From the NCBI RefSeq assembly GCF_009741925.1, contig NZ_WPCC01000026.1, positions 1 through 46,856 of the forward strand: 46,856 nucleotides of DNA, written 5' to 3'. Below, one piece after another: positions 6,959 through 46,856 of this stretch; position 1 is the stretch's first letter, and each line of letters begins with the position of its first letter. The position numbers were made by a program, and so were the translations under genes. Below the pieces are notes generated by a model. It ran no database searches and was not told where the DNA came from. It saw only the letters and a program-made list of their open reading frames with translations. This DNA is from Natronomonas sp. CBA1123 (lineage in GTDB: Archaea; Halobacteriota; Halobacteria; Halobacteriales; Haloarculaceae).

Positions 6959-6997
6959 GTATTAATCCCCCGGTAGTGGGAGACGACGGATTAATAC
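6959..6997. promoter_or_regulatory. perfect 10-bp inverted repeat in the SDR promoter
   Basis: GTATTAATCC at 6959-6968 is mirrored exactly by GGATTAATAC at 6988-6997 with a 19-base spacer. The right arm supplies the ATTAATA TATA-like box about 25 bases before the ATG at 7022. A dimeric regulator bound here would cover the promoter. The repeat itself is certain; its role is inferred. Confidence 0.5.
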
Positions 6998-7021
6998 TGG
7001 CTCCCTGCGGGGGTTGTTCGC

Positions 7022-7831: not shown

Positions 7832-7890
7832 GGTTTGATTTCCCTCCCGCTCCGACCGCCATCTATGCCCTCCATCCGTGGTGGTTCGGC

Positions 7891-11344: not shown

Positions 11345-11600
11345 GACCCCTTTTTCCACGGTTGCTCACCGACGGTGACTCTCGAACCACCTCGATGAAA
11401 AAGACACGCCGCCCGACTTTTTATAAAAGATAGCGCGACCAGAGGGCCCATGCCCTGACGATTCGCCGGCTATCCGCCGAGACGGGAGTGTGGAATACGG
11501 ATAGTCGAAAGGGTGCGGTTCGTTCCGCCTGTTCGCCATCTGCTGACAGGTTCGTGACAAGAGCTTTGAGGTTCGTGATTGATATTGACCGACAAGGCTC
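11345..11600. promoter_or_regulatory. 256-base gap with direct repeat before acyl-CoA ligase
   Basis: A TATA-like TTTTTATAAAAG sits near 11419-11430. AGGTTCGTGA occurs twice, at 11548-11557 and 11569-11578, exactly 21 bases (two helical turns) apart and just before a second TATA-like TGATATTGA near 11580. This fits a tandem operator over the ligase promoter. A 94-codon frame on the minus strand (11366-11650) runs through these sites and has no family features, so it is not called. Confidence 0.45.
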
Positions 11601-15492: not shown

Positions 15493-16347
15493 ATGAACAC
15501 ACTCGTGTTGACGAAAGGCGTTCCCGACTTCCGGGAAGGGCAAGTGTCCTTCGACGAGGACGGCCACCTCGAACGAGGGAAGACGCCGACGGTGATGAAT
15601 CCGAACGACAAGTTCGCGCTGCGGGCGGCACTACAGACGAAGGTACGTCACGGCGGGACGGTCTCGCTTATGAGCATGGGCCCGCCGGGCTACAAGGAAA
15701 TCCTCCAGGAGGGGATGCGGGACGTGTACGCCGACGACCTGTATCTGCTCTCCGACCGCGAGATGGGCGCCGCCGACACGTGGGCGACGGCCATGACCGT
15801 CGCGACCGGCATCGAGAAACTCGAGGAGACGCCGGACCTAGTGTTCGCGGGTTTCAAGAGTGCCGACGGGGAGACCGGCCACACCGGCCCCCAGACGAAC
15901 TGGTGTCTCGGCTGGCCGCTTGTCACCCACGTCATCGCTCTAGACATCGACGAGGAGGCAGGTCGGCTCCGGGCGAAGCGACTGGTCAAGGGTGACGTCG
16001 AGGAGATAGAGACCGTCGAAGCCGACCTCCCGGCGTTCGTCGTCACCGACCCGGAGTTCGAGCCGACTTATCGGAAGGCCGAACACCGGCTCAAACACAA
16101 GGAACTCCGCGAGAAGACCCAACGGCGCGCGGAGGACTACGAGGACATCGTGACGGTGTGGGACCACGAGGACCTCAATCTCGACCCCGACTACATCGGA
16201 CTCGATGGCTCGCCGACTATCGTCTCCGGCGTCGACCCGATTCCGAAGGCACCCTCCGAACGCGAGGCGACGACGGTCACACCGGACGACGAGGAAGGTA
16301 TGCGAAACGTACTCGAGGAGATGGAGCCGTTCGCGGCAGGTGACTGA
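15493..16347 (+). CDS. etfB: electron transfer flavoprotein beta subunit
   Basis: The 284-residue beta (FixA-type) subunit of ETF, which takes electrons from acyl-CoA dehydrogenases. It begins MNTLVLTKGVPDF and carries MNPNDKFALRAAL, GPPGYKEILQEGMRDVYADD and FAGFKSADGETGHTGPQ, all typical positions of the family. The C-terminal tail is longer than in mitochondrial ETF-beta. It is two bases upstream of etfA, and the order etfB-etfA-fixC is the conserved one. Whether it is of the bifurcating (FixAB) class cannot be settled by reading alone. Confidence 0.92.
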   Translation: MNTLVLTKGVPDFREGQVSFDEDGHLERGKTPTVMNPNDKFALRAALQTKVRHGGTVSLMSMGPPGYKEILQEGMRDVYADDLYLLSDREMGAADTWATAMTVATGIEKLEETPDLVFAGFKSADGETGHTGPQTNWCLGWPLVTHVIALDIDEEAGRLRAKRLVKGDVEEIETVEADLPAFVVTDPEFEPTYRKAEHRLKHKELREKTQRRAEDYEDIVTVWDHEDLNLDPDYIGLDGSPTIVSGVDPIPKAPSEREATTVTPDDEEGMRNVLEEMEPFAAGD

Positions 16348-16349
16348 CC

Positions 16350-32319: not shown

Positions 32320-33386
32320 GCCCCACGAACCAGACCAACACCCGCGAGCAGTTCCGCCCCGAGGACCACCCGACCGAACACTTCCTGCTGACGACCGTCG
32401 TCGGCTCGTATCCCAAGCCCAAGTGGCTCAACCGCGCGAAGGAACTCCACGAGGACGACGACCGCGATTTCGACGAGGAGAACCTCCAGGAGGCCCTCGA
32501 CGACGCCGCCCGCCTCATCACCCACGAACACGAGCGTTCGGGCCTCGACGTGGTGTGTGACGGCGAGATGCGGCGCAACGAGATGGTCGAGTACTTCGCC
32601 GACCGCATCGACGGCTACGAGTTCAACGGCCCCGTGAAGGTGTGGGGACACAACTACTTCGACAAGCCCTCGGTCGCCGACGAGGTGGCCTACGACGAAC
32701 CGTGGCTCGTCGACGAGTTCGAGTTCACCGCCGGCGCGACGACCCGGCCCGTGAAGGTTCCCATCACCGGCCCCTACACGCTGGCGTCGTGGTCGTTCAA
32801 CGAACACTACGACAGCGAGGCGGAGCTGGCCTACGAACTCGCCGGCCTCGTCAACGAGGAAATCGAGCGCCTCGTCGACGCTGGCTGTCGATACATCCAA
32901 ATCGACGAACCTGCCCTCGCGACGACGCCCGACGACCACGCCATCGTCGGCGAGTGTCTCGAACACATCGCCGACGGCATCCCGGAGCACGTCCGACTCG
33001 GCCTCCACGTCTGCTACGGAGACTACTCGCGCATCTACCCCGAAATCCTCGACATGCCCGTCCACGAGTACGACCTCGAACTCGCCAACGGCGACTACGA
33101 GCAGTTGGACGTGTTCACCGCCGACGAGTTCACCAAAGACCTCGCGCTGGGCGTCGTCGACGTCCACACGACCGACGTGGAATCCGTCGAGGAAATCAAG
33201 GAGAACATCAAGAAGGGCTTCGAAATCGTTCCGCCGGAGCGCCTGACGGTCTCGCCGGACTGTGGCGTCAAACTCCTACCGCGCGAGGTGGCCTACCAGA
33301 AGATGGAGAACATGGTGCAGGCCGCTCGCGAGGTCGAGGCCGAACTCGACGCCGGCGAAGTCGACGCGGCCTACGTCGGCGACTAA
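32316..33386 (+). CDS. metE: methionine synthase, cobalamin-independent catalytic type
   Basis: A 356-residue archaeal-type MetE core that transfers a methyl group to homocysteine. The zinc ligands look complete: LHVCYGDYSR (H-x-C), a Glu in YDLELANGD and the final cysteine in VSPDCGVKLLPRE. The start region VVGSYPKPKWLN is typical. It is shorter than bacterial MetE because archaeal proteins lack the duplicated N-terminal barrel; here the preceding gene may replace it. ATG 32316 is the translationally coupled start. The methyl donor in archaea may not be the folate of bacteria. Confidence 0.9.
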   Translation: MSPTNQTNTREQFRPEDHPTEHFLLTTVVGSYPKPKWLNRAKELHEDDDRDFDEENLQEALDDAARLITHEHERSGLDVVCDGEMRRNEMVEYFADRIDGYEFNGPVKVWGHNYFDKPSVADEVAYDEPWLVDEFEFTAGATTRPVKVPITGPYTLASWSFNEHYDSEAELAYELAGLVNEEIERLVDAGCRYIQIDEPALATTPDDHAIVGECLEHIADGIPEHVRLGLHVCYGDYSRIYPEILDMPVHEYDLELANGDYEQLDVFTADEFTKDLALGVVDVHTTDVESVEEIKENIKKGFEIVPPERLTVSPDCGVKLLPREVAYQKMENMVQAAREVEAELDAGEVDAAYVGD

Positions 33387-33565
33387 AACACAGTCGTCCA
33401 CAACAGCCCGACCACGAACAGCGCGACGGCCGCTATCGTGCCCCAGTCACTCCACCGCGTCTCTTTGCCCGTACCGTCATCGGACTGCGTCAACACGTAG
33501 GCGTAGCCGGCGATTGCGACCAGCGCGATGACGACCCCGTACACGACGTTCAATGCACTTGCCAT
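33383..33565 (-). CDS. small two-helix membrane protein
   Basis: A 60-residue protein with two hydrophobic segments, VVYGVVIALVAIAGYAYVL and GTIAAVALFVVGLLW, joined by an acidic loop. Its stop overlaps the metE stop by four bases on the opposite strand. A TATA-like GTTTTATG on the minus strand about 25 bases before the ATG supports expression. Function unknown. Confidence 0.72.
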   Translation of the reverse strand: MASALNVVYGVVIALVAIAGYAYVLTQSDDGTGKETRWSDWGTIAAVALFVVGLLWTTVF

Positions 33566-33642: not shown

Positions 33643-34044
33643 ATGCGAATCGAGTTGCGGGTGTGCAAGCACTGCCACGAGGGAGACCACGGGAACCAAC
33701 AGAAAACGGCGGTGACGAGGGACATGGTGGACTGCGCCGAGCGCGTCCGCGAGTACAAGGACCTCATCGGTCTCGACTCCGTCTACATCACCAAAGTCGA
33801 AGAGGGCGACCCCGGGGGCGCCGAGGCGCTTCCGGCCATCGTCGCCAGCATCGAAAACGACCAGGTGACCCTCTCGGACACCCAGTTGGTCATGGAGGAC
33901 GAAGACGGCAACATGCTGGTGTATCCGGAGCCGAAGGACATCCTCGAAGTGCTCACGCGCAACATCGACCAGATTCAAGAGCAGACTCGACAGGACGTCA
34001 CCGTCGAGTTATCCGAGGAAGGAGCAAAACTGCTAACGGCCTGA
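33643..34044 (+). CDS. hypothetical protein with C-x2-C-x5-H motif
   Basis: A 133-residue acidic protein not recognised. The N-terminus MRIELRVCKHCHEGDHGNQQ has two Cys and two His that could bind a metal or be redox active; a third Cys is in MVDCAERV. It ends in an amphipathic helical part. It is convergent with the formate-dehydrogenase-type operon (17-base gap) and divergent from the small membrane protein. No signal peptide or membrane segment is seen. Confidence 0.75.
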   Translation: MRIELRVCKHCHEGDHGNQQKTAVTRDMVDCAERVREYKDLIGLDSVYITKVEEGDPGGAEALPAIVASIENDQVTLSDTQLVMEDEDGNMLVYPEPKDILEVLTRNIDQIQEQTRQDVTVELSEEGAKLLTA

Positions 34045-34061
34045 ATACGAAATCGGAGGCC

Positions 34062-35075
34062 TCAGTCGTCGGTCTGTGGCTCCCCGCCGTCGGCGACCGT
34101 CTCGCCCTCGCGTTGCCGCTGTTGCATCTCCTTCTCCCAGCGGACCCGCATGACGTTGCCGTACATCGAGAGGACGATACCGACGAACAGCACGAACATC
34201 CCGATGTTGATGCCGATGGTGAGAAGCAAATTGGTCACGTCGCCGCTGACGACCAACTCCCTCGGGACGGGATACCCCTCCCGAACGATGCTTCCCATCA
34301 GCACCGACACGATTCCAACCACGACGAGCGAGCCGAATATCGTCGACACGGAGTGCCAACTCGGCGCGAGTTCCAGCGCCTCGATGCCGGTTCCCTCGTG
34401 GTCGTCGTCTTCGCCGTGGGACTCCGGAATCATGCTCCGGGGAATGAACGCCTTCGTCTCTACCGGGTAGAACGCCGGGTGCATCCCGTGTTCGAAGATG
34501 TGGAACATTACCCCCATGACCATGATGACCCCCAACAGACCGTGGAAGATGACGAACGCCATCGCCGCGGTCCGCGTCGCGAAGTACTGCATCAGTCCGG
34601 TTTTCGACCAGATGAGCAGCCCCGAGATGGTGAGCAACAGCAGTTCGACGGCGAAGATGAAGACGACCCCCTTGCCGACGTAGGACAGAAGCGGCACCTC
34701 GTCGGACTCGTAGCCGGCGAACTGCCGGGCGTGGGGATGACGTTCGTCCGTCCGCCCGAGCATGAACTGGACGTCCTGCAGGAACGCGTCGACGTCCGCT
34801 TTCCGCGGGAGGATTTCACGGAAGTTGCTTCGGCCGGTCGGACTGATGACCATCAGCACCATCCAGAAGACGATGAGCGCGACGAGTCCGAGCCCCGCGG
34901 CGCGGTGGAGTGCGGTGACGCCGGTCGCACCGCCCATCAGCGTCACCATCCACCACAACTCGGAGTTGAACATGATGGCGTAGCCGGTGAAGAACAACAG
35001 GAACACGTCCAGCGCCAGAAGCGAATGGAACAGCGTCGTCACCCGCGTAAACTTCCCGTGGTCGAGATTGGTCAT
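34062..35075 (-). CDS. fdnI: cytochrome b-type subunit of formate-dehydrogenase-like enzyme
   Basis: A 337-residue membrane protein resembling the gamma subunit of membrane-bound formate dehydrogenase. It begins with FTRVTTLFHSLLALDVFLLF and has at least five hydrophobic segments. Candidate haem ligands are the histidines in TLFHSLL, TALHRAAG, VIFHGLL and MFHIFEHGMHP. An extra C-terminal membrane segment (LLTIGINIGMFVLFVGIVLSM) and an acidic tail extend the usual form. It would carry electrons from the iron-sulfur subunit to quinone. It is the last gene of the leftward operon. Confidence 0.87.
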   Translation of the reverse strand: MTNLDHGKFTRVTTLFHSLLALDVFLLFFTGYAIMFNSELWWMVTLMGGATGVTALHRAAGLGLVALIVFWMVLMVISPTGRSNFREILPRKADVDAFLQDVQFMLGRTDERHPHARQFAGYESDEVPLLSYVGKGVVFIFAVELLLLTISGLLIWSKTGLMQYFATRTAAMAFVIFHGLLGVIMVMGVMFHIFEHGMHPAFYPVETKAFIPRSMIPESHGEDDDHEGTGIEALELAPSWHSVSTIFGSLVVVGIVSVLMGSIVREGYPVPRELVVSGDVTNLLLTIGINIGMFVLFVGIVLSMYGNVMRVRWEKEMQQRQREGETVADGGEPQTDD

Positions 35076-35109
35076 TCCGTCTCACCCCCCGAACCGGAGC
35101 CGTCGGCCA

Positions 35110-35460
35110 TCACGCTTCGCCCGACTCGCTCTCCTCGGGGTGACGCATCCGCGCGGCGAGGCGACGGAAACTCGCCCAGTGGAGGAACACCATAAACAGG
35201 ATGAACACCCCCATGATGACGTCTGCGGCGTGAACCAGCGCGATGAGGAAATCCAGCGAGGGGATGGTGTTGCCCGCGACCCAGTCGCTGCCGACGCCGC
35301 CGCCCTCGACGGTCGGGCTGACGCGGAACAGCGTCTCGTAGAACGGCCCGAAGCCGCTGGCCCACCACACCGACAGGAGCGCGACAGCAATCCCGACGAC
35401 CGCCGAGACGAGGACGGAAATCGGGGAGTAGCCGTCTACCTCCGGCGTCTCGTAGCTCAT
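35110..35460 (-). CDS. small membrane subunit of the formate-dehydrogenase-like operon
   Basis: A 116-residue protein with two long hydrophobic segments: ISVLVSAVVGIAVALLSVWW and VMGVFILFMVFLHWASF. It lies between the iron-sulfur and cytochrome b subunits, overlapping the former's stop by four bases, so it is probably an additional membrane anchor of the same complex. Histidines are present (HAADVIMG, LHWASF) but no haem motif is certain. I know no named family for it. Confidence 0.78.
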   Translation of the reverse strand: MSYETPEVDGYSPISVLVSAVVGIAVALLSVWWASGFGPFYETLFRVSPTVEGGGVGSDWVAGNTIPSLDFLIALVHAADVIMGVFILFMVFLHWASFRRLAARMRHPEESESGEA

Positions 35461-36113
35461 CGGAACTCACCGGCGTCCTCGCCGAAGACGATGTCCATCG
35501 CCACATCGTTGAAGAACGTACCCTCGTCGCGTTTGTCGAGTTCGTCCGCGATTTGGGAGGGTTGCCCGACGAGGATAGCGTCGGTCGAACACTCCTCGGC
35601 ACAGGCCGGCCCCTTCCCGATGTCCTGGCGTTCCTCACACATCGTACACTTGTCCATCGTGCCGCCGGTTCCGAACACCTGCGCGGCGCCGTCGTCGGAT
35701 TCGGGGAACTGCGGTGCGCCGAACGGACACGCCGACAAACAGTACTGACAGCCGACACAGAGGTCCTCACGGACGTCGACGAACTCCTCGTCGGTCTTGA
35801 TGAGGGAATCGGTCGGACACACCGAAACGCAGGGTGCGTTCTCGCAGTGGTAACACTGCATCGGGATGGACGTCTCGCCGGGGGATTCCCCCTGTGCGAG
35901 TGCGGCCGCGCCGGACATCCCGGACCCCTCTTGGCCCTCCAGCATCGTCGAGATGCTGATACGCTGTTCGTCCTGTGGGACGTCCCACGTGCGTTTGCAG
36001 GCGACGACACAGCCGCCACAGTCGATGCAGGCGCCGACGTCCGGGAAGATTCGCGTTCCCTCCCCGACGCTCATCACGCCGTCGCCCATTACCTCTTTGT
36101 TCGATTGGGACAT
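35457..36113 (-). CDS. fdhB: four-cluster ferredoxin subunit (FdnH/DmsB type)
   Basis: A 218-residue iron-sulfur subunit with four cysteine groups: CIDCGGCVVAC, CYHCENAPCVSVCP, CVGCQYCLSACP and CTMCEERQ with a later CAEEC, i.e. four [4Fe-4S] clusters like those of FdnH, DmsB or NrfC. It links the catalytic subunit to the membrane subunits. It has no signal peptide and would be exported together with the Tat-bearing catalytic subunit. It begins 11 bases after the catalytic gene. Confidence 0.9.
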   Translation of the reverse strand: MSQSNKEVMGDGVMSVGEGTRIFPDVGACIDCGGCVVACKRTWDVPQDEQRISISTMLEGQEGSGMSGAAALAQGESPGETSIPMQCYHCENAPCVSVCPTDSLIKTDEEFVDVREDLCVGCQYCLSACPFGAPQFPESDDGAAQVFGTGGTMDKCTMCEERQDIGKGPACAEECSTDAILVGQPSQIADELDKRDEGTFFNDVAMDIVFGEDAGEFR

Positions 36114-36124
36114 GGATTATCACC

Positions 36125-39100
36125 TCATTGAACTGTTTCGCTGTCACGGACGTCGAAGTTCTTCTGTGAACCGATGTCGTTGCGGTCCTGCGGGAACTCG
36201 AGGTCCGTGTCCATCCCGAGCTCCTCGAGTAGCTCCTGTGTCGCCGGTCGGACGGCGACCATCGACACCTTCGTCTCCTGCATCTGCGTCTCGACGTCGT
36301 AGCCGCGCGACGTAATCGCGTTCGCGGAGTCGCCGATGGCGTAGGGGACGGTCCCCTCCGGGTATTTGTCCTCCTGACTGTTCCCCTTAAACACGCCGCC
36401 CCAGTGGAACGGCAGGAACACCTCGCCGTCGTTCGGCCGGTCGGTCACGCGTGCCTTCACCAACACCGACCCCCGGTCCGTCGAGGAGACGACGACGAGG
36501 TCGCCGCCGTCGACGCCGAGTTCCTCTGCTTTCGCGGGCGTAATCTCGGCGTACATGTGGGGCTGGAGGTCGGCCGTATGGATGTTCGACCGCGTCTCCG
36601 AGCCGCCACCCTGGTGTTCGACCTGCCGGCCGGTCGTCATGATGGTGTCGAGCTCCGGCCCGTCGCTTTCGCCGTGGATGATGTCCATCGCCTGCTGTTG
36701 CTCGGTGGCGTTGTTCTGGTCGAGTCGGTAGAAGTTCTGCTGTTGACCGTTCGCCGGCCACTCCTCGACGAGGTCCGGCCGCGGACTCTCGATGGGTTCG
36801 CGGTGCACCGGCACCTTGTCGAGGAAGCTCCAGACCACCGCCCGCGCCCGCCCGCGACCGGTCGGGGCGTCGGGTTGGCTGTAGTCGTATTCCTCGTAGA
36901 ACGACGGGTCGACGTCCTTGGTCCGTTCGAGGTACTCGTCGAAGGTCGTACTTCCGGTGTTCGGGGAGTCAATCGCCTGTGCGGCGGTGTACACCGACTC
37001 TTGGCTGTCGAGTGCGTACTGCTGTGGAATCGTCAACTCGTCGGACTGCGTCGACTGCGTCGGGTCGATGAGGCTCCGTGGTGGCGTCGTCTTCCAGCCG
37101 GATACTCCGGAACGCCGTGTATCTGGCCGTCGTCGGCCAACTCCCTGTCGCTGGCCCAGTCGGGCACGTAGGGGTCCCGAATCAGACTCAGCGCGTCCTC
37201 CTGACTGTCGTATCTGTCGCCGACGGCGTCGACGGTTTCCTGGAGCGGGTAGTCCGCGTCGGTCGGCATCGCGTCCCACTCCTCCGGTGTCGGCGCCTGG
37301 ACGCCCCACCGGGTCCGGAAGTCCTGACCCCCATCGTTGGGGTTCATGTCGTCGTTCCAGATGATGGGTGTTCCCGGATGCCCCTCGCCCCAGCAGGGCC
37401 ACGGGAGCATCCAGTACTCGCCCTCGACAGGCGTTCCCTCGGCGCCTTTGAGGTCCTCACTGGAGAAGGCGTAGTCGTACTCCAGGTGCTGTTGGAGCCG
37501 TTCGGGCGTCTGGCGGTAGCCGATGGTGTTCGTTCCGAGGTTGAACTCCCGGATGACGTTCTCGTAGGACGATTTCCCGTTGTGCATCTCGGGGCCCGAG
37601 CCCCAGTCGAAGTGCTCGCCGAACCCGAGTGCGTCGGCGAGTTCCTGCATGATTCGCAGGTCGGGTCGGGAGTTGTGTGCGGGCTCTGCGACCGGTTCCG
37701 ACCACTGCACCGACCGGTTCGTGTTCGTCAGCGAGCGGTAGTGCTCGTACTGACTCGACGCCGGCAGCAACAGCACCGGCGGGCCATCCTCGTAGTCCGG
37801 AAGGACGCTCGCGACCGACGGGAACACGTCGATGACGACCAGCAGGTCGAGGTTCTCCATGCCCTCTTTCATCTGCTCCATCTCGCTGATGGAGTTCGCG
37901 GAGTGCCCCCAAAACACCGCGATTTTCACCTGGTCGGGTTGGTAAATCGGCGTCTCCTGATAGCGGTCCTCCTGGTCGAGAGCGCCTTCGAACCAGCGGG
38001 CCACCGTGAGCCCGTTCTGGAACATCATCGAGTTCTCGGCGGGTTCCTCCGGACTGTGTCCGGGGTCGTCCCGATTCGCCGGGAGGTCCGCCTCGTCGTT
38101 GCCTTCGTACACCGGATGCTGGCGGACGTACTTGTCCGGCGGCATCAACTCAAAGCGGTCGTACATGTCCGCGAACGAGGTCGAACCGCTGGTGTAGGGG
38201 TTCTTGTCCCAGATTTCGGCCCACCACGACCAGCCGCCGGGGGTGAGCCCGTAGTACCCCGGCAGGATGTGACTCGCCACCGCGAGGTCGGTCGCACCCT
38301 GGACGTTGGCGTGGCCGCGCATGACCTGCAGGCCGCCGCCGCTCCGGGCGGAACTCCCGGAAGCGAGGCTCAACGCGGCGTACGAGCGGATGTTCTGGGT
38401 GCCGTTGTTGTGCTGGGTGCCGCCCATCGCCCACTCGATTTGGACGTGGGGTCGGTTCTCATCGACCATCTCCGCGATGCGCTCGATGTCCTCCTCGGAG
38501 ACCCACGTGATGTCCGACACCGTCTCCTTGTCGTACTGGTCGAGTTCCACGTCGACGTCCTCCCAGCCCTGAACGCGGTCCGTAAGCATGTTCTGACCGC
38601 TGTCGTCGGCCTCCGGGTCCATCGCCAGCCCGTACTCGTCGCGGAGTTCCTTGATGACACCCATCATCAGCGCCACGTCGGTCCCGGGCCGGAACCGGAC
38701 GAACTCGTCGGCGTGGGCCGCGGTCTTCGTGAACCGCGGGTCTAAAACGAGTATGTCCCCGCCGCGTTTCTGCCCCTCGAGGATGTGTTGCATCGCGATG
38801 GGGTGGGCTTCGGCTGGGTTCTGCCCGACGATGATGTTCAACTCGAAGTTCCGGTAGTCCGGAACCGTGTTCGTCATCGCGCCGTAGCCCCAGGTGTTCG
38901 CCAGTCCTGCAACCGTCGTCGAGTGACAGATGCGCGCCTGATGGTCGATGTTGTTCGTCCCCATGAACGCCGCGAGCTTTCGGATGGCGTAGGACTCCTC
39001 GTTGGAGTGGTGGGCACTCCCGAGTAACATTACGCTCTCGCGGCTGTGTTCTTCGTCGACGTCGACCGCATCGCTCGGCGATACGTCCGAGTCGGGCCAC

Positions 39101-39513
39101 AGCGCCCGGATGTCGGTAGCGAGGCGGTCGTAGGCGGTGTCCCACGAGAGCTTCTGCCACTCGCCGTCTTCCCGAATCATCGGGTGTTTGAGGCGCTTTT
39201 CGGAGTGTTCGGTCTCGTAGATGCCCGCCCCTTTCGAGCAGAGCGAGCCGTTGTTTATCGGGTGGTCTTCCCACGGCTCCATGCCGACGAAGGAGTTACC
39301 CTTGCGCTCGCCGTGGAAGCCACAGCCGACCGAACAGTAGTTGCAGATGGTCTTTGTCAACTCACCTTCCGTGTCCTGTCCGTCGACCTCGTCGTCGTTT
39401 TGGGCGAGTACCTGCCCGGCCGTACCGCCACCGAGTGCCGCCACGCCTGCCAGCGCGCTCGCCTTCATGAACGACCGCCGGTCGAGGTCGAGGGAGACTG
39501 GTTCTGTGCTCAT
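36125..39513 (-). pseudogene. fdhA: formate-dehydrogenase-type catalytic subunit, frameshifted
   Basis: A Tat-exported molybdenum/tungsten bis-MGD oxidoreductase. The N-terminus has the twin-arginine signal DRRSFMKASALAG; cysteines 57, 60, 64 and 92 form the [4Fe-4S] site (CNYCSVGC ... LCSKG); the metal ligand is Cys196 followed by His197 in ARICHSTTVAGL, the Cys/Sec-His pair of formate dehydrogenases. The frame from 39513 loses meaning after VPEY at about 37102 and stops at 37033. The remaining 325 residues, including the MGD-binding domain (FLPFHWGGVFKGN), continue in another frame to 36125. One missing base near 37099-37105 would restore a protein of about 1130 residues. No further lesion is seen, so the break is recent or a sequencing error. 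Confidence 0.88.
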
Positions 39514-39713
39514 TCCATTAGTTGGCTCTCTGCCTCGTCTTTGCTTGCGATTCCCTAGCACGTTAGGAATCATCCTATATTAAAATACGGGGCCAGTCGT
39601 GGACATATTTTTAAATTAGTGGTCTGCTATCGAGAGTATTCAATCTATTTTCGTTTCTTTTCTGAAATGAATCGTCGCAAGGCATATATCCGTGGTAGCA
39701 TTGAACACACTCG
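39514..39713. promoter_or_regulatory. divergent promoter region, formate-dehydrogenase operon / polyferredoxin
   Basis: These 200 AT-rich bases drive two operons. On the minus strand TATATTAAAATA (39577-39588) predicts a start near 39550, covered by an imperfect inverted repeat GATTCC-N11-GGAATC (39549-39571). On the plus strand CATATAT (39683-39689) lies 24 bases before the polyferredoxin ATG at 39714. A further AT stretch, CATATTTTTAAATT, is near 39603-39616. Both transcripts could be controlled together. Confidence 0.55.
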
Positions 39714-41861
39714 ATGAATGTAGGGGCGTTCGTCTGCGGCTGTGGTGGAACGTGTGGTGTCGACCTCGAGGAGGTCCGCGAGGGCGTCCGCGACGTCGAT
39801 GTCGTCGCCTCCTCGGAGTTGCTCTGTGAGGGTGGCCTCGACGGCGTCGAGCACGTCATCGACGAGTACGACCTCGACCAACTCATCGTGACGGCCCCCG
39901 ACGACCGCTGTCGAAAGACGTTCCGTGAGGTACTCGACCGGAAGGGGCTACACCCGGAGGCCGCGGCGTTCGTCGACCACAGGGAACGCAACGCGTGGGT
40001 CCACGACGATTCGGCCGCTACCGACAAGACCGCACGCCTGCTCAACGCGACCCACGCCGGTCTACAGGAAGAGGCCGTCTCGCGGACGGTCTCCCGAGAG
40101 GCCGGCGACGAGGTCGCCGTCATCGGCGACGTCGAGGCAGCGGCGGCCCTCGCCGACTCCGCCGACGTAACCCTCGTCGCCGACGGTAAGGAGTTCGCGA
40201 ACGTCGATGTCGACCTCGAAGCCGTCGATATCGCTCGCGGGGAGGTCGTCGGCGTCGATGGGTCGTTCGGCGAGTTCGAACTCACGCTCGGGTCGCGAGT
40301 CACCGACGCCTGCATCGACTGCATGGAGTGTGTTCGGGAGGGACCCGACAGCGTCACGGCCAGACCCGTACAGATTCCCGCCGACGCCCCAGACGGCGAG
40401 TGGACCGACGTGTGTCCCACCGACGCCATCGAGATGGAGGGAACGACCCGTCGAATCGTCGTCGACCAGGTTGTCTACCCGGACGCCGACCCCGACACCC
40501 GCGGCGGCCGCGTCGGCTACTACACCGGCCCCGTCGACGCCGCCACGATAGCGGCCGTCGAAACCCATCTCGGCGGCATCGAGAAGCCAGCCTTCCTCGA
40601 CCTCGAGATGGACGTGTGTGCCGCGGGGGAGTCCTCCCAACAGGGCTGTACCGCCTGTACCGACGCCTGTCCGCACGACGCGGTCCAGCGACCGACCATC
40701 GACTCCGTGGAGTTCGACGAGGTGGCCTGTCAGAACTGTGGCGCCTGCACGTCGGCGTGTCCCACGGGTGCGACGAAGCTTCGTGAACCCTCCAACCGAC
40801 GCATCGCCCGCGAAGTCGAGGCACTTCTCACCGCCGAGAACGACGACGGTGGCTGGCTGTTTGCCCGCGGGACCGGCGGCATCGAGCGACCCGTCGTCGC
40901 TTTCGTCTGCTCGGAGCGGGCCGCCGACCGCCTGCGGGAGTACGGCCGCCGGGCCGCACTCGATGAAGACGTTTCCTACCCGCCGGTGTTGCCCGTGGAG
41001 GTCAACTGCACCGACACGGTCGGCGAGGCCCACGCCCTTCACGCGCTGGCCGCCGGCGCCGACGGCGTCGCGGTCGTCGGCTGTGGAGAGGCCTGTCTCC
41101 ACTCCGGCCCCGACCCGAAGGCCGAACTCGTCGAGCGACTGAACCGCGCCAGTTCGGACCTCGGATTGGGCGAGCGCGTGACGTTTCTCGCACCGGGAGC
41201 CGACCATGAGACGTTCTGTGCGGAGTTGGAGTCGTTCGTCGACGGCCTCGACGAGTCGCCGGTTCCCACCGGCGAACACGAGGCGACGGGCACTATCGAC
41301 GGCGACATCGACCGTCCGGCCTTCGCCTCCCACGCGTGGACGCTCGAATCCGTTCGCGTGCTCCTCGAACACGTCGAGCCCGAGCGCGAAATCGTTCGTG
41401 GGCTGAAGGACTTCGGACGGATGGAGGTGTCGGATGCTTGCAACCTGACGCCGACGTGTACGAACCTCTGTCCAACCGACGCCATTCAGCGAACCAACGA
41501 CGGCGACCTACTGTTCAACCACGAGCGCTGTGTCAACTGTGGCCTCTGTGAGGAGGGCTGTCCGGAGACGGCGATTACGATGCAGGACGGGTTGGAGCTG
41601 TCGCTGTTGCCGGAACACCGCGAGGAACCCCCCGACGGCGTCCCGGAGGAACTCGGGACCGCGTGGACCCGCGTCTACGACGGCGAGATGCAGGAGTGTG
41701 TCCGCTGTGGCAAACCCTTTGCCTCCGCCGGGACCATCGAGACGGTTCGCGGGGAAGTCGGCGACGCCGTCGAAGGTATCGCTCCCGACTCCCCGCATTC
41801 GGTGTTCGAGTACTGCGGGGACTGCCGGACGCACCTGCTGTTCGAACGAGGTGAGAACTGA
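39714..41861 (+). CDS. HdrA/MvhD-like polyferredoxin
   Basis: A 715-residue protein built from pieces of heterodisulfide-reductase systems. Residues 1-95 match the HdrA N-terminus (VGAFVCGCGGTCGVDLEEV). Residues 131-195 keep only a shrunken Rossmann-like remnant (VAVIGDVEAAAALADSADV) in place of the HdrA FAD domain. Then come CIDCMEC with CP at 234, a group at 302-319 (CTACTDACP), CQNCGACTSACP at 339-350, an MvhD-like domain at about 392-505 with Cys 399, 432, 457 and 461, CNLTPTCTNLCP at 576, CVNCGLCEEGCP at 606, and a final C-x2-C pair twice (662/665 and 701/704), probably a zinc ribbon. No export signal is present, so it is probably cytoplasmic. It overlaps the TorD-like gene by one base. 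Confidence 0.85.
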   Translation: MNVGAFVCGCGGTCGVDLEEVREGVRDVDVVASSELLCEGGLDGVEHVIDEYDLDQLIVTAPDDRCRKTFREVLDRKGLHPEAAAFVDHRERNAWVHDDSAATDKTARLLNATHAGLQEEAVSRTVSREAGDEVAVIGDVEAAAALADSADVTLVADGKEFANVDVDLEAVDIARGEVVGVDGSFGEFELTLGSRVTDACIDCMECVREGPDSVTARPVQIPADAPDGEWTDVCPTDAIEMEGTTRRIVVDQVVYPDADPDTRGGRVGYYTGPVDAATIAAVETHLGGIEKPAFLDLEMDVCAAGESSQQGCTACTDACPHDAVQRPTIDSVEFDEVACQNCGACTSACPTGATKLREPSNRRIAREVEALLTAENDDGGWLFARGTGGIERPVVAFVCSERAADRLREYGRRAALDEDVSYPPVLPVEVNCTDTVGEAHALHALAAGADGVAVVGCGEACLHSGPDPKAELVERLNRASSDLGLGERVTFLAPGADHETFCAELESFVDGLDESPVPTGEHEATGTIDGDIDRPAFASHAWTLESVRVLLEHVEPEREIVRGLKDFGRMEVSDACNLTPTCTNLCPTDAIQRTNDGDLLFNHERCVNCGLCEEGCPETAITMQDGLELSLLPEHREEPPDGVPEELGTAWTRVYDGEMQECVRCGKPFASAGTIETVRGEVGDAVEGIAPDSPHSVFEYCGDCRTHLLFERGEN

Positions 41862-42508
41862 TGGACGATAACAGAATCTACGAGGCCCGACTGGAAGTGA
41901 TAGATTTCCTCGTCGAGGTGTTCTACGACGCCCCGAGCGAGGAGTTCCTCGGACGGCTGTTCTCCGGCGACGTGGCCGTCCCCGACGACGAAATCAACGA
42001 GCGGATGGACCGCGGCTTCGAGCGCCTCGAGGCGTTCATCGAGGCCAACCGGTCCCGTCCGGTCGAGGAAGTCGCCGACGAACTCCGGACGGAGTACACC
42101 CGGCTGTTCGTGGGGCCGCGACCGCCGGCGTTGCCCCACGAGACGTACTTCCGTGAGGACACCGAACTCATCGGCGAGGGACTGACGGCGCTCGAAGCCG
42201 CCTACTCCGCGGCCGAGTGGGCTCCGCCGGATGATTACCCCGAGGAAAACGACCACGTCGCCATCGAACTCGCGTTCCTTCGAAACCTCGTCGACCGCCA
42301 GCGCCGCGGCGAGAAGGCCGCCTTCAACTACGAACGCGTGTTCATCGACGAGCATCTCCGGACGTGGGACGAGCAGTTCCTCGAAACGATAGCGTCCGAA
42401 CTCGACGAAGGCGACGCCGAGACCGACCTCTTTCTCGCCGGCGCGGAAGTGCTCGTCGGGTTCGTCGACTTCGAGGACGAACTCGTCGCCCAGCAGGTGC
42501 CTACCTAG
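41861..42508 (+). CDS. TorD/DmsD-like molybdoenzyme chaperone
   Basis: A 215-residue all-helical acidic protein with EYTRLFVGPRPPALPHE, a TorD-family signature (the Y/L-F-x-G-P segment), and a C-terminal half of amphipathic helices. Such chaperones bind the Tat signal of molybdoenzymes until the cofactor is inserted. The Tat-bearing catalytic subunit encoded 2 kb away is the obvious client. It starts inside the stop of the polyferredoxin gene (TGATG), so that protein is made with it. Its 3' end overlaps the convergent small gene by eight bases. Confidence 0.88.
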   Translation: MDDNRIYEARLEVIDFLVEVFYDAPSEEFLGRLFSGDVAVPDDEINERMDRGFERLEAFIEANRSRPVEEVADELRTEYTRLFVGPRPPALPHETYFREDTELIGEGLTALEAAYSAAEWAPPDDYPEENDHVAIELAFLRNLVDRQRRGEKAAFNYERVFIDEHLRTWDEQFLETIASELDEGDAETDLFLAGAEVLVGFVDFEDELVAQQVPT

Positions 42509-42719
42509 CGCCGTAGACGACGACGAATCCCGACAGCAGAGCCAGCACCGCAAGGACCGCAGCGAGGGGCGCACCGGCCGCAATCGTCCGTTCCATCAGG
42601 AAGTAACTGCTCCAGACGCCCCGCCACTCGGCGAACAGCGAGACGACGCCGACGCCGGCGACCACCGCGAAGAGGGCACCGACCGCGGCCGTCAGCGCTG
42701 CGGTACTCATCTCACCCAT
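42501..42719 (-). CDS. small membrane protein, two segments (72 aa)
   Basis: A 72-residue protein with hydrophobic segments ALTAAVGALFAVVAGVGVVS and APLAAVLAVLALLSGFVVVY, and EWRGVWSSYFLMERT between. Translation may start at either of two Mets. It overlaps the preceding membrane-protein gene by eight bases and the convergent torD end by eight bases. It is the third member of a tiny-gene unit. Function unknown. Confidence 0.72.
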   Translation of the reverse strand: MGEMSTAALTAAVGALFAVVAGVGVVSLFAEWRGVWSSYFLMERTIAAGAPLAAVLAVLALLSGFVVVYGAR

Positions 42720-42990
42720 CGTACCACCGTCCGACGACGAGGACGCCGAACAACGGAACCAGCGCCGCGAGCAGATAGCTCACGAACGTCGACATGTATC
42801 TGATGGTCGATTCGAGGTGGATAGACCAGTGCCACGTTCCCTTCAGCCCGGCGATGATGGCGACGGTACCGACGACCAGAAGCGACAGTCCGATGAGCAC
42901 CGCGACTACGTAGACGGTCGCACGAACGTAGCTCAAAACCCGTTCGACACCGAACTCGGCCGTCGCGTCGGAATCCGTTTCGACGGCCAT
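42712..42990 (-). CDS. small membrane protein, two segments (92 aa)
   Basis: A 92-residue protein with an acidic N-terminus (MAVETDSDATAEFGVERVLS) and two hydrophobic segments (VYVVAVLIGLSLLVVGTVAI and FVSYLLAALVPLFGVLVVG) joined by GTWHWSIHLESTIRY. It shares the central aromatic-E/R loop pattern with the 72-residue protein, so the two may be diverged relatives. Start at complement 42990, two bases after the stop of the 44-residue gene. Confidence 0.74.
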   Translation of the reverse strand: MAVETDSDATAEFGVERVLSYVRATVYVVAVLIGLSLLVVGTVAIIAGLKGTWHWSIHLESTIRYMSTFVSYLLAALVPLFGVLVVGRWYDG

Positions 42991-42992
42991 CT

Positions 42993-43127
42993 TCAACACC
43001 AGTGTTCTCTGTAGGCGTCGTAGGCGACGACGGCGACGGCGACGAACCCGAGACCGAGAACGACGAACGAGGTCAACGACGCCTGAGGAGTCGTTCCGAG
43101 GTGTGCGATACCATTGACCATGGGCAT
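42993..43127 (-). CDS. 44-residue single-helix membrane protein
   Basis: Reading the minus strand gives MPMVNGIAHLGTTPQASLTS, then FVVLGLGFVAVAVVAYDAYR and EHWC before the stop: one hydrophobic segment and a short C-terminal tail with His, Trp and Cys. A TATA-like GGTTTAGAC on the minus strand about 20 bases before the ATG supports a start of transcription here. It leads the three-gene unit of small membrane proteins. The second Met (43121) is an alternative start. Confidence 0.6.
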   Translation of the reverse strand: MPMVNGIAHLGTTPQASLTSFVVLGLGFVAVAVVAYDAYREHWC

Positions 43128-43245
43128 AGTTGTGAATCACCAGTCTAAACCCTTGTGGAACCCCAATCGTTTCTGTCACGAAGTGGGTCGAACAGGTCAT
43201 CGAGCCGCGAAAAACGCTTTTGACTGTCCAGACGTACTCCAGCGC

Positions 43246-44478
43246 ATGCCCTCGCGACGCGGCCTCCTCGGACGGCTGGTGGCGCTCGGCGCCGCGACGA
43301 TTCCGGGGTGTTCGGCGGTGCTGTCGCGGCGCCGTAACTCGCCGGTGTCGCTCCCGCCGAACCCTCACGAGGTGCCCGACCGCCAGCACGCGTGGGACGC
43401 CGTGTTGCACACCGACGAACACGGCAACCGCCACCCGCCGCGTCATCACCGCGTGCTCCTCTTGGAGTTGGATGTCGAGCCCTCGGTCGAGGCCGCCGAC
43501 ACCGTCGAGACGGCGATGCGCGAGGTGGAGGCCACCTACGAATGGTCGCCGGAGGGACTCCTCCACGCGCTGGCGTGGGGGACCGACTACTTCGAGCGAA
43601 TCGACGAGTTGGACACCTCGCCGATTCGCAAGCCGGAGGTGCTGTCGCGGACGGACGACCCCGACCTCCTCTCCTATGACGCCGCCCTCGTCCTCGCCAC
43701 CGACGTGCCCTCACATCTGGTCCGCACGGAGACGGCGCTGTTCTCGGAGTCCGACCCACTCGAAGGCCGGGACCTCGACGCCCGATTCGGCGAGGTGTTC
43801 TCGATTGCCGCCCGTCGAACCGGGTTCCACGGGGCAGGGCTTCCAGCCGAACACACCGACGCCGAGGGCGTTCCGAACGATATTCCCCAGGACGCACCCA
43901 TGTTCACCGGGTTCATGTCGATGCGCCGAGGCACACAACCGAGCGAGGACCGCATCACCATCGACGGCGGGGCCCTCGACGACAGCCGCTTCGACGGTGG
44001 CACGACGATGCATCTCTCACATCTCTCGGAGTCACTCGACGACTGGTGGGCGATGGCCGACGAAGAGCGCGTCGCTCGGATGTTCTCACCCGACTTCTCC
44101 CCCTCGGACGTGGACTCACTGACCGACACCGTGCCGTTTGCCGACAGCGCCTTCGACCACGCCGCGGAGTTCGGCGTCGTCGGCCACCACGAGAAGGTTG
44201 CTCGGACGCGTGAGGACGGCCAGCCGGTCATCCTGCGCCGGGACTTCAACACGACGGACGGCGGCCGGGCTGGCGTCCACTTCCTGTCGTTTCAGGCGTC
44301 GCTCGACGACTTCGTCGCCACGCGGAAGGCGATGAACGGGTGGTTCCTGCGGAACGAACACGAGCAAGTGACCGACAGGAAAAACAACGGCCTGCTGAAC
44401 TTCATCGAGGTGGAGTCGCGGGCGAACTTCTACGTGCCGCCGCGTTCCGACCGGGCGTTTCCGGCGTTCTCGCCGTAG
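43246..44478 (+). CDS. Tat/lipobox secreted DyP-peroxidase-like protein
   Basis: A 410-residue exported protein. The N-terminus MPSRRGLLGRLVALGAATIP followed by GC combines a twin arginine with a lipobox-like Cys, i.e. a Tat lipoprotein. The body shows the ferredoxin-like duplication of DyP-type peroxidases, ending with GVVGHHEKVARTREDGQPVI, GVHFLSFQASLDDFV and FYVPPRSDRAFPAF, similar in order to EfeB. The haem-ligand His may be one of those in GHHEK, but the catalytic GxxDG of DyP is not clearly seen, so it may not be a peroxidase. I start at ATG 43246 because the longer frame hides the signal peptide. Confidence 0.75.
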   Translation: MPSRRGLLGRLVALGAATIPGCSAVLSRRRNSPVSLPPNPHEVPDRQHAWDAVLHTDEHGNRHPPRHHRVLLLELDVEPSVEAADTVETAMREVEATYEWSPEGLLHALAWGTDYFERIDELDTSPIRKPEVLSRTDDPDLLSYDAALVLATDVPSHLVRTETALFSESDPLEGRDLDARFGEVFSIAARRTGFHGAGLPAEHTDAEGVPNDIPQDAPMFTGFMSMRRGTQPSEDRITIDGGALDDSRFDGGTTMHLSHLSESLDDWWAMADEERVARMFSPDFSPSDVDSLTDTVPFADSAFDHAAEFGVVGHHEKVARTREDGQPVILRRDFNTTDGGRAGVHFLSFQASLDDFVATRKAMNGWFLRNEHEQVTDRKNNGLLNFIEVESRANFYVPPRSDRAFPAFSP

Positions 44479-44481
44479 CCA

Positions 44482-44619
44482 TTACTCCTCGAGGGAAACG
44501 TCGCCGTCGACTTCGCCGGTGGGGAGTTCGTTCGGCCAGACCCCGTGGTCCCACACCTCGAAGCCGTTGAACGTCTCGGTTGCGCCTTTGGGACGCCATT
44601 CGCCGTCCTTGTGTGCCAT
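44482..44619 (-). CDS. 45-residue Trp-rich small protein
   Basis: Minus-strand reading gives MAHKDGEWRPKGATETFNGF, then EVWDHGVWPNELPTGEVDGD and a short acidic end. It has three tryptophans. A TATA-like ACTTAATA on the minus strand (about 44643-44650) lies 24 bases before the ATG, and codon usage fits coding DNA. It converges on the DyP-like gene with a three-base gap. Function unknown. Confidence 0.65.
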   Translation of the reverse strand: MAHKDGEWRPKGATETFNGFEVWDHGVWPNELPTGEVDGDVSLEE

Positions 44620-44673
44620 ATCGTGACATACTCCTGAGACGGTATTAAGTTTTGTGCGGTGTCCTCTCGAGGG

Positions 44674-45009
44674 CTACCCGGTCGGCGGTGCGTTGGACGG
44701 TCGGTCGGCCTCGTCGAGGAACACCCGCGCGAACAGGTCGACGTACATCGCGAGTACGTCCGACGCCTCGATGTCGGCCGAGGCGGCCTGCGTTTCGAGG
44801 AACGCCGCCAATTCGTCGGTCGGTTCGTGGTGGACGGTTCTGCCCTCGAGTTCGAACGTCACCTCGTGGGCCCCCGAGACGAGGTGTTCGACCTCCAGCA
44901 GCGCCTGTTCGACCTTGGTCTCGAGGGCGTCGTCGATATCCTCCAGACGTGCCTCACCCCACTGTTCGGCGGCGTCGTACAGCCGGTCGCTGACCTCGAA
45001 GGATATCAA
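44674..45009 (-). CDS. hypothetical acidic protein (111 aa)
   Basis: Not recognised. It starts MISFEVSDRLYDAAEQWGEA and is mostly acidic helix with one beta-like stretch (HEVTFELEGRTVHH). No cysteines, signal or membrane segments. The ATG overlaps the stop of the zinc-ribbon gene upstream (45006-45009), so it is in the operon that begins with the AOR-like gene or with the membrane protein at 45403. Confidence 0.72.
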   Translation of the reverse strand: MISFEVSDRLYDAAEQWGEARLEDIDDALETKVEQALLEVEHLVSGAHEVTFELEGRTVHHEPTDELAAFLETQAASADIEASDVLAMYVDLFARVFLDEADRPSNAPPTG

Positions 45010-45152
45010 AACGACGCTCCCTCCTCGGCCTCGAAGGCGGTCGTCCAGACGGTCTCCTCCTCACACACCGGACACTGCTGGCGGAGTTCCGACCGCTCCA
45101 TCCGGGCGAAGTTGCCCATCTGCCCGCAGTCGGTACACTCGAAGTACGTCAT
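45006..45152 (-). CDS. 48-residue zinc-ribbon protein
   Basis: Starts MTYFECTDCGQMGNFARMER and continues with RQQCPVCEEETVW: two C-x2-C knuckles forming one rubredoxin-like zinc ribbon. The start (complement 45152) overlaps the stop of the membrane protein gene by four bases and its stop overlaps the next start, which supports reality despite its size. Confidence 0.78.
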   Translation of the reverse strand: MTYFECTDCGQMGNFARMERSELRQQCPVCEEETVWTTAFEAEEGASF

Positions 45153-45403
45153 TCGGGTGGCCAACTCTCCGGCGACGGCTCTTCTTCGCCCAGTTCGCCG
45201 AACAGGGCGACGAGCAACGCGAGGAAGGCCGCGAGGACGACCAACCCGACGACCCCACTGGGGGCGGACCGGCCGATGTAGTCCATCGACGCCCACTGTA
45301 TCGACCCGAACACCTCGAACCAGACGACGACCGACCAAATCGCGACTGCGAGCGCCGCGAACGTTATCCACCGCGTCCGTTGAAGCGCAGTTCTGAGACC
45401 CAT
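45149..45403 (-). CDS. small membrane protein (84 aa)
   Basis: An 84-residue protein with two hydrophobic segments (ITFAALAVAIWSVVVWFEVF and GVVGLVVLAAFLALLVALFG) and an acidic Pro-rich tail EEEPSPESWPPE. It is four bases overlapped with the zinc-ribbon gene and follows the frameshifted gene by 43 bases. Function unknown. Confidence 0.74.
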   Translation of the reverse strand: MGLRTALQRTRWITFAALAVAIWSVVVWFEVFGSIQWASMDYIGRSAPSGVVGLVVLAAFLALLVALFGELGEEEPSPESWPPE

Positions 45404-45446
45404 GGTAACTCACCACACGACTGTTGTGGGGCCGAGGATGAAAAGG

Positions 45447-46152
45447 TTACTCCACCTGCCACTCTGCTTTCTCCGCGGCGTCCTCCAGCGGGAGGAACTC
45501 CCAGCCATCCGGTGCCCACCCCGCCTCCTCGGGGACGCCGACGAGGACGAATCGCTCGGCGTAGAACATCGAGTGGCGGTCTATCTCCGCGAGACGTTCG
45601 GTGGGTCCGGTCCCGCTTCCGCTGAAGAAATCCACGTCTATGGTGTGCTCTCGCTGGAATCGGTTGATGACGTGAGCCGGTACCTCGCCGACCAGACCGA
45701 GCCAGTCGGCCCACTCCGCCGCGTCCGCGAAGACGTAGGCGGGGTTCGCCAGCCGTTTCGCGGCTTCGTAGGTGAGCGCGAGCGTCATGTCGTCGGCGTC
45801 GCCGCCGTGTGGACCGGACGCCTGCTGGCCGTCGGCCTCCGACGCCTCCGGTTGCGCGGACTCGGAGTCCGCACTCCGGCCGGCACCGCCCCCCGGAACC
45901 GCCGCCTTCGACGGGAATGCCCGCCGGCCTGTCTTTATTCTCGTGAGGGACGTGTGGGACCGCCCCGGAACCACCGTCAGCGACGTTTCCGTCCTCCGGG
46001 TCCGCGCTCCGAGCGGCCCCGGTATCGGCTTCCGCGGAGTCTTGCTCCGGCGGGGACTGGTCGGTATCGTCACGCCAGAGCCAGTCACCGTCGTTTCCGG
46101 GCTCCGATTCGGATTCGGTCTCGATGTCGTCGAGGTCGATTTCGTCAGTCAT
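45447..46152 (-). pseudogene. two-part acidic protein, frameshifted at a C6 run
   Basis: The frame from 46152 encodes an acidic disordered leader (MTDEIDLDDIETESESEP ...) that makes sense until about 45894 and then turns Arg-rich. The frame one base over carries the sensible rest, with EWADWLGLVGEVPAHVINRF and GVPEEAGWAPDGWEFLPLED. The switch is at six C residues (45889-45894, G6 in the gene). One fewer base gives a protein of 234 residues. The C-terminal 113 residues could also be made alone from an internal ATG (complement 45788). The start overlaps the AOR-like stop by eight bases. Domain function unknown. Confidence 0.72.
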
Positions 46153-46856
46153 CGTCGAGAGTCAGTGGTGTCGACGCCACGGGCGTCTCCTCGTCGACCG
46201 CTTCGAGCAGGTCCAGCCGGTCGAGCGTCTCTCGGGCCGGGATGCCGGCTTCGCTCCAGCCACGGGCCGCATAGTAGCGGTCGAGCGTCGCCTCGAACTC
46301 GACCGACAACTCCTCGGAATCGACGACCTCGGGAAGCGCGTCGTCGGTGCGGTCGAACCCCTCTCGGACGTTGAACAGCCGAACGAGGTTCCAGATGCGT
46401 TCGCCCGTTCGGTCGAGGTCGTCGTACGGGGCGCCGACCGAGTCGAGCCACTCGGCGCCGTCGTCGGCCAGCACCTCGCCGACGAAGTCGTCGGCGACGA
46501 GCGACCACCGCACCGAGCGGGTGTCCTGTGCTGCGGCGACCGACCGAACGACACGGTCGGGACTCCACGGGCCGTCGAAGGCTTCCTCCTCTACGGGGCG
46601 GGCTCGGCGGTGACACCCGCCGCGGTCGCTCGTCGCGTAGGCCAGCGCCATGCTCGCCGCGCCGCGGGGGTCGTAGGCCGGAAGCTCCATGTCCTTGACC
46701 GTCGGCACCAACTCGTCGCCGCCGTACTCGCGGGCCGCGGCGTCGACACCATCTGCCAGGGCGTCACCGAGTGGCGTCGAACGGGTCGCCACGGCTTCCA
46801 GTAGCTCTCGGGCACCTGCCGCGTCGCCGAAACGCACGTCGGCGTCCACCAACCCC
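46145..46856 (-). CDS. aldehyde:ferredoxin oxidoreductase-like protein, C-terminal part
   Basis: The C-terminal 236 residues of a tungsten-pterin AOR-family protein (usual length about 600); the N-terminus lies beyond the window. MELPAYDPRGAASMALAYAT followed by SDRGGCHRRA is the family hallmark of domain 2/3, and WNLVRLFNVREGFDR is also typical. Family enzymes oxidise aldehydes and reduce ferredoxin. In the segment equivalent to D-S-L-x2-C, which supplies the last cluster cysteine in AOR, this protein reads RWSLVADDF, so the Asp and Cys are absent. It may be a diverged paralogue. Confidence 0.85.
   Translation of the reverse strand, partial: GLVDADVRFGDAAGARELLEAVATRSTPLGDALADGVDAAAREYGGDELVPTVKDMELPAYDPRGAASMALAYATSDRGGCHRRARPVEEEAFDGPWSPDRVVRSVAAAQDTRSVRWSLVADDFVGEVLADDGAEWLDSVGAPYDDLDRTGERIWNLVRLFNVREGFDRTDDALPEVVDSEELSVEFEATLDRYYAARGWSEAGIPARETLDRLDLLEAVDEETPVASTPLTLDDD

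Follow-up and report, generated by a model that had tools for sequence, protein, structure and literature searches.

Introduction

Respiratory formate dehydrogenases (FDHs) encoded with a TorD chaperone and an accessory polyferredoxin are known, as in the bacterial FDH3-type cluster, which comprises fdhABC and genes for a small twin-arginine translocation (Tat) protein, TorD, DUF3306, DUF3305, a 4Fe-4S protein, DUF6494, and Mrp/ApbC. In bacteria, FdhD is the FDH sulfurtransferase. FdhD usually accompanies FDH, with known exceptions in archaea, and some FDH-expressing organisms lack fdhD (Magalon 2023, PMC10609526); how FDH matures where fdhD is missing has been named as an open problem (PMC10609526). 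Haloarchaeal formate oxidation has been documented in Halodesulfurarchaeum, by a published FDH (PMC5437934), and formate oxidation has also been documented in soda-lake natronoarchaea (PMC6176080). Here we analyzed a 46,856-nucleotide stretch of DNA from Natronomonas sp. CBA1123 (the window), which is the entire contig C67 of a draft genome of 89 contigs. From 33.6 kb to its end, the contig carries a gene island of about 15 genes that is probably horizontally mobile and encodes a Tat-exported, quinone-reducing respiratory FDH with a haloarchaea-specific maturation set. New in comparison with the known systems are the fixed haloarchaeal accessory set, an AOR paralogue lacking the iron-sulfur cluster, and the class-wide lack of FdhD (145 genomes); the roles given below to the new parts are those that we infer.

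Like the FDH3 cluster, the island contains FdhA, FdhB, and a cytochrome b subunit, TorD, a full-length polyferredoxin homologue (HDR), and uncharacterised small accessory genes. However, its small genes differ, an AOR-like protein and DUF7124 are added, and its gamma subunit is paired with an extra membrane protein (m116), which showed no homology to the gamma subunit of bacteria. It shares with the membrane-bound FDH of Halodesulfurarchaeum formicicum (HTSR_1573-1576) the character of a haloarchaeal Tat-exported FDH. Two genomes of the g10 group (G001 and G007), probably Halodesulfurarchaeum, carry an FDH followed by a small membrane protein, a cytochrome b, and TorD together with a homologue of HDR (31%), but their FdhA is only about 45-49% identical to that of the island.

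Predicted formate dehydrogenase core

The best PDB match of FdhA was the FdhA chain 9vap_A (E 2e-210), and alignment with it revealed the catalytic Cys-His (RICHSTT) and Arg (RGHANVQGATD); the Tat motif of FdhA is RRSFMK. In the cytochrome b subunit, eight His residues were invariant in 36 of 36 sequences (6, 17, 57, 113, 178, 192, 196, and 199 in locus L031) and are of the haem type by conservation, while m116 has two invariant His (77 and 94 in L031), which lie 17 positions from each other within a hydrophobic segment. The Tat signal on FdhA, the 4Fe-4S subunit FdhB, and a cytochrome b with conserved haem-type His together match a respiratory molybdo-formate dehydrogenase. FdhD (PF02634), which is usual for such enzymes, was found in none of the 145 Halobacteria genomes, and the control search was positive in 8 of 14 genomes, including E. 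coli, two methanogens, and Sulfolobus. Since exceptions are known, this lack is compatible with membership of the class. Literature searches on FdhD in haloarchaea returned nothing direct.

PDB sequence searches with m116, cytochrome b, and the small CxxC protein p133 gave no relative. Two candidate origins for m116 found no support, with hhalign probabilities of 3-4%: an N-terminus that had split off from the gamma subunit of bacterial FDH, and homology to the small membrane protein of L072.

Co-occurrence and synteny

The survey covered the 145 Halobacteria genomes, and the small-gene profiles were run against the same set; these profiles were made from HDR-positive loci, so very remote paralogues could escape them. 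True matches (E down to 1e-53) were widely separated in score from the remaining matches. Synteny was read from 20-kb stretches around the HDR matches, of which there were 43, with 40 clear orthologues. FdhA of type 1 (the FdhA-FdhB-m116-cytochrome b type) was present in 36 genomes, out of 44 with any FdhA match. The same 36 genomes, and no others, contained m116 and the acidic protein a111; all of them were HDR-positive. The hydrophobic protein m84 was found in the 36 and in G082, and the Trp-rich protein W45 in 35 of them, with chance-level matches in two further genomes. The island paralogue of DUF7124 scored above 220 bits in exactly the 40 genomes with an HDR orthologue. The nominal chance of a111 being confined to HDR-positive genomes was 2e-27, or 1e-11 when counted by genus, both values ignoring kinship. 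Pairwise identities were positively rank-correlated with those of HDR for every gene (0.33-0.80), a measure that cannot tell co-inheritance apart from common descent.

In most of the 36 type-1 loci, the gene order was p133>cytb<m116<FdhB<FdhA<HDR>TorD>..W45<a111<(Zn<)m84<D7124<AOR. In 33-36 other loci spanning several families, the small open reading frames (ORFs) stayed in frame, in the same order, and on the same strand; judged by this conservation, they are conserved proteins and not chance ORFs. Genomes with and without the island occurred side by side inside several genera (Natronomonas, g15, g16, g17, g23, g37, and g44), where the small genes again tracked the enzyme. By its distribution, the block is one evolutionary unit: genome comparison showed FdhA, FdhB, cytochrome b, and m116 to be a conserved enzyme block, with which HDR, TorD, m116, W45, a111, and m84 are co-inherited.

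The original prediction, of a multi-component respiratory unit with an extra membrane subunit, agrees with the conservation of this block in 36 genomes and with the small genes that track it, and the comparison of synteny and co-occurrence that it proposed placed the small genes with type-1 FDH. Small genes in synteny without the enzyme were sought across the 145 genomes and none were found. In G082 (L156), MobA, YqeC, a cluster-less AOR-like gene, and m84 are adjacent, FDH and HDR are missing, and genus-mates have the whole island; this locus looks like a deletion scar.

Polyferredoxin HDR and TorD

Comparison of HDR with HdrA revealed a match restricted to the N-terminal domain and the ferredoxin regions, with about 160 residues where HdrA has about 420. 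Like HdrA/MvhD proteins, HDR has the HdrA N-terminal domain, ferredoxin pairs, and an FlpD/MvhD domain; unlike them, it carries extra ferredoxins and a C-terminal CxxC/CxxC, its FAD-binding (flavin) domain was not found by domain search or alignment, and no HdrB or HdrC was seen nearby. The label of HdrA/MvhD fusion initially given to it therefore stands for the HdrA N-domain, the ferredoxins, and FlpD, but not for the flavin domain.

The homology between HDR and the 4Fe-4S protein of bacterial FDH3 clusters extended over the entire protein (27% identity, E 9e-35), and on Rhodobacterales plasmids this homologue lies beside fdhABC, TorD, DUF3305/3306, DUF6494, and Mrp/ApbC. Because HDR is a full-length homologue of a protein found beside TorD in those clusters, HDR and TorD are, by homology, an accessory pair of a known kind. 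On a plasmid of Natronorubrum bangense (L166), a PhsA/Arr-like molybdoenzyme with NrfD adjoins HDR (54%) and TorD, and arsDA and halo-CC-star genes come next. In G029 (L071), a similar HDR/TorD/PhsA-Arr-like set precedes Mrp, MobA, and MobB, with p133 at a greater distance (products assigned there by visual reading of the sequence). Since HDR also accompanies a molybdoenzyme that is not an FDH, it is, judged by gene context, an accessory of several Mo enzymes and not an FDH subunit. Its role probably lies in maturation. Literature searches on the accessory polyferredoxin found nothing direct.

AOR-like protein

The AOR-like protein is a whole-length homologue of P. furiosus AOR (1aor, E 8e-71). 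In common with AOR/WOR proteins (P. furiosus AOR, E. coli YdhV, BamB), it retains Tyr427, His448, and several pterin motifs (R76, G95, G96, and D343 kept; N93Y and D489W changed). In contrast to them, the [4Fe-4S] ligands Cys288, Cys291, Cys295, and Cys494 are all replaced in 78 of 78 full-length island copies (C494D), Glu313 of the active site is Ala, Ser, or Gly in the same 78, the neighbouring Glu311 is an invariant Arg, and Asp489 is Trp throughout. Cluster and active-site residues were reported to vary very little in a 2026 survey covering more than 4,000 WOR proteins, which also described the importance of Glu313 (PMC13328260). A non-island AOR (L074) retains Glu313 and the cysteine-rich motif. 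In the alignment of the AOR-like proteins, 173 of 587 columns were at least 95% conserved, and it is therefore a maintained protein. MobA and YqeC adjoin its gene in many loci. Because the tungstopterin fold is largely kept while the [4Fe-4S] ligands and Glu313 are lost, its most likely role is to bind or carry the pterin cofactor and not to oxidise aldehydes; on these residues, a function as a redox enzyme is not plausible. Literature searches on cluster-less AORs returned nothing direct.

Mobility and sub-modules

A close named relative of the window is N. gomsonensis YCN60 (L075), with a DNA identity of 95.2% over 15.9 kb and a polyferredoxin identity of 97%. In N. gomsonensis, the island lies between MetE and the L7Ae/S28e operon, and the window shows the same site, its contig ending before L7Ae; in four Natronomonas without an insert at this site, MetE is found near the L7Ae/S28e operon. 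Islands of Halopenitus, which belongs to another family, were closer to the window than those of Haloarcula for nearly every gene, small ones included (for example, HDR 84 versus 68%; m84 72-75 versus 37%). The exception was DUF7124, with only 58% identity in Halopenitus (L181-L182) and in Natronomonas G049 (L157), compared with L075; the AOR-like gene of G049 was likewise at only 58%, the rest of the island being far less diverged. The AOR-DUF7124 pair, or DUF7124 alone in Halopenitus, seems to have been exchanged separately. As read from these comparisons, the distribution shows the predicted formate respiration genes to be mobile among otherwise aerobic haloarchaea.

Three sub-modules were distinguished. 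The type-1 FDH block consists of FdhA, FdhB, m116, and cytochrome b with W45, a111, Zn48, and m84. The second comprises p133, DUF7124, and the AOR-like protein, which also occur with HDR in four type-2 loci, where FdhA is about 42% identical; the one type-2 locus read gene by gene has a different membrane subunit. The third, m45/m91/m72/DUF7405, lies between TorD and W45 and is an optional insert that many islands lack. The DUF7405 family at large was present in 128 of the 145 genomes, and m91 in 21, all HDR-positive. The original prediction had placed an exported DyP-like protein and a three-gene membrane unit within the respiratory system; the protein is indeed exported, but it belongs to DUF7405 and is not a Dyp-type peroxidase by domain score, its marginal match to Dyp_perox_C (19.4 bits) falling below the cut-off of 20.

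p133, DUF7124, and a111

In p133, C8, C11, and H16 were invariant among island orthologues. Its AF2 model (pLDDT 90) showed a thioredoxin-like arrangement with the CxxC at the start of helix 1; nearly all top structural neighbours had Trx, GST, CLIC, or peroxiredoxin folds, although these matches were weak (Z <= 7.2; Foldseek E >= 0.05). Paralogues of p133 that are 40-58% identical (L151, L153, and L154; Natrialbaceae-type and other genomes) all retain the CxxC. Their contexts were uninformative, with EF-1beta, SecDF, and other general genes and no Mo enzymes seen. The idea of p133 as a direct FdhD substitute is weakened by its occurrence near the PhsA/Arr-like enzyme and by its absence from the g10 genomes.

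Each of the 145 genomes has a second DUF7124 paralogue (for example, G000:C9:13847-14239), and no metalloenzyme was seen around this universal paralogue in L158. In L179 (G001, probable Halodesulfurarchaeum; 6079-11548), the neighbours of a DUF7124 gene are a gene for a MIP18-like protein and an operon for a Tat molybdoenzyme.

The model of a111 gave weak ribbon-helix-helix neighbours, with TraY, Arc, AvtR, and DndE among the top rows (Z <= 5.9), and the protein is possibly a tandem ribbon-helix-helix. Foldseek returned no significant fold for p133 or a111, and the PDB sequence search with a111 gave chance-level matches only.

Proposed pathway and alternatives

In the proposed pathway, formate would be oxidised outside the membrane, and electrons would pass from FdhB through cytochrome b/m116 to menaquinone. 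Maturation in the cytoplasm would fall to HDR and TorD, a role that the corresponding bacterial proteins next to FDH3 probably have, while p133, DUF7124, and the AOR-like protein may handle the metal cofactor. The acidic a111 may be a DNA-binding regulator, and Zn48, m84, and W45 could serve as assembly or anchoring proteins. More tentatively, and on balance improbable as a whole, the cluster-less AOR could be a molybdopterin carrier or insertase for FDH, acting with DUF7124, p133, and HDR in a cofactor-loading and possibly sulfuration route unlike that of FdhD or XdhC.

Several observations weigh against a respiratory FDH with a dedicated haloarchaeal maturation set. The g10 genomes gave no p133, W45, a111, Zn48, or m84 in profile and locus searches; p133 and DUF7124 both have paralogues without FDH; and a Mo enzyme other than FDH is likewise accompanied by HDR and p133. 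The change of D489 to Trp alters one pterin motif residue of the AOR-like protein, so that cofactor binding by it is not assured, and about five genomes (G017, G098, G126, G135, and G144) lack the AOR-like gene within the stretches read, where it may be dispensable or located elsewhere.

Instead of being assembly factors, the small proteins could belong to the mature FDH complex as structural subunits or as its membrane anchors, forming a larger supercomplex. This is somewhat unlikely, even though the hydrophobic proteins m116 and m84 occur strictly with FDH of the cytochrome-b type and are absent from type-2 loci with another membrane subunit, and although the two invariant His of m116 could bind haem. 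Inspection by eye revealed neither a signal nor a membrane segment in W45, a111, Zn48, p133, and DUF7124, whereas FdhA is exported by Tat, and p133 and DUF7124 accompany type-2 FDH too. Of the two functions that the original prediction had offered for the small genes, assembly appears to fit the soluble ones better than anchoring; their dedication to FDH holds for m116, a111, m84, and W45, but not for p133 and DUF7124, which come from wider families with non-FDH paralogues. Far less probable is an AOR-like protein that is an active tungsten oxidoreductase giving electrons to HDR, in the way that BamB supplies BamE/F within class II benzoyl-CoA reductase. The AOR fold, Tyr427, His448, and several pterin motifs are kept, and BamB-I combines AOR with HdrA-like subunits (PMC13328260), but the residue losses are found in every full-length copy and HDR has no flavin domain.

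The island might also be degenerating, with the copy in the window already dead. Two verified 1-base indels, in FdhA near 37,098 and in DUF7124 near 45,897 (relative to N. gomsonensis), and a third apparent frameshift that puts the end of m116 out of frame near 35,110, fall inside 13 kb. We regard this as rather improbable, given that the indels sit in short C runs of an 89-contig draft and that the 95% identical sibling L075 is intact (FdhA 1151, DUF7124 237, and m116 129 amino acids), with FdhA also open in the other type-1 loci. The breaks in FdhA, DUF7124, and m116 reflect either assembly errors or mutation or damage in the strain.

A respiratory FDH with its own maturation set would bear on the loading and sulfuration of FDH without FdhD, which is an acknowledged gap (Magalon 2023, PMC10609526). 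Here is a clade with FdhD in no sampled genome, yet its FDH comes with a fixed, uncharacterised gene set that includes a cluster-stripped relative of tungsten enzymes. Several Haloarcula species carry the island, which opens this gap to direct genetic testing. With the AOR-like protein of the island, the AOR/WOR family also gains a member that is apparently non-redox.

Gene coordinates and neighbouring genes

Table 1. Genes of the island and its borders, with positions in the window
Feature	Position	Strand	Remarks
m60, small membrane protein upstream of p133	33383..33565	-	Three related loci at 73-82% identity, two loci at 43%; missing from most islands
p133, conserved CxxC protein, predicted thioredoxin-like fold	33643..34044	+	71-91% identity among island orthologues
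Cytochrome b subunit, FDH gamma-like	34062..35075	-	PF01292 E 1e-19; TIGR01583 below cut-off
m116, extra membrane subunit	35110..35460	-	36/145 genomes, all FDH type 1
FdhB, 4Fe-4S subunit	35457..36113	-	Best model FDH3_beta E 1e-40, below that model's cut-off
FdhA, predicted Tat-exported molybdopterin formate dehydrogenase catalytic subunit	36125..39513	-	Frameshift near 37,098; 9vap_A match
HDR polyferredoxin: HdrA-N + ferredoxins + FlpD + C-terminal CxxC/CxxC	39714..41861	+	
TorD/NarJ-family chaperone	41861..42508	+	PF02613 E 4e-25
m72, membrane protein of optional module	42501..42719	-	Weakly similar to m91
m91, membrane protein of optional module	42712..42990	-	21/145 genomes, all HDR-positive
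m45, single-transmembrane protein of optional module	42993..43127	-	
DUF7405 (DyP-like) exported protein of optional module	43246..44478	+	E 2e-116
W45, Trp-rich small soluble protein	44482..44619	-	E 5e-26 in window
a111, acidic protein	44674..45009	-	36/145 genomes, all FDH type 1; two beta-alpha-alpha units in model
Zn48, 48-aa zinc-ribbon-like protein	45006..45152	-	Four invariant Cys
m84, hydrophobic small protein	45149..45403	-	Conserved PAPExWPP tail
DUF7124 island paralogue	45447..46152	-	1-base indel in window
AOR-like protein without cluster, C-terminal part only	46145..46856	-	Contig end cuts gene

The genes originally named were all present at their places and conserved, and the overlaps between tiny genes are real (TorD/m72, 42501-42508; m72/m91, 42712-42719; a111/Zn48, 45006-45009; Zn48/m84, 45149-45152). 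In L075, the full AOR-like gene encodes 579 amino acids and is followed by S28e and L7Ae. Upstream of the island, at 15493-19629 of the window, two electron-transfer flavoprotein genes followed by a FAD-dependent oxidoreductase gene form an ordinary electron-transfer flavoprotein cluster.

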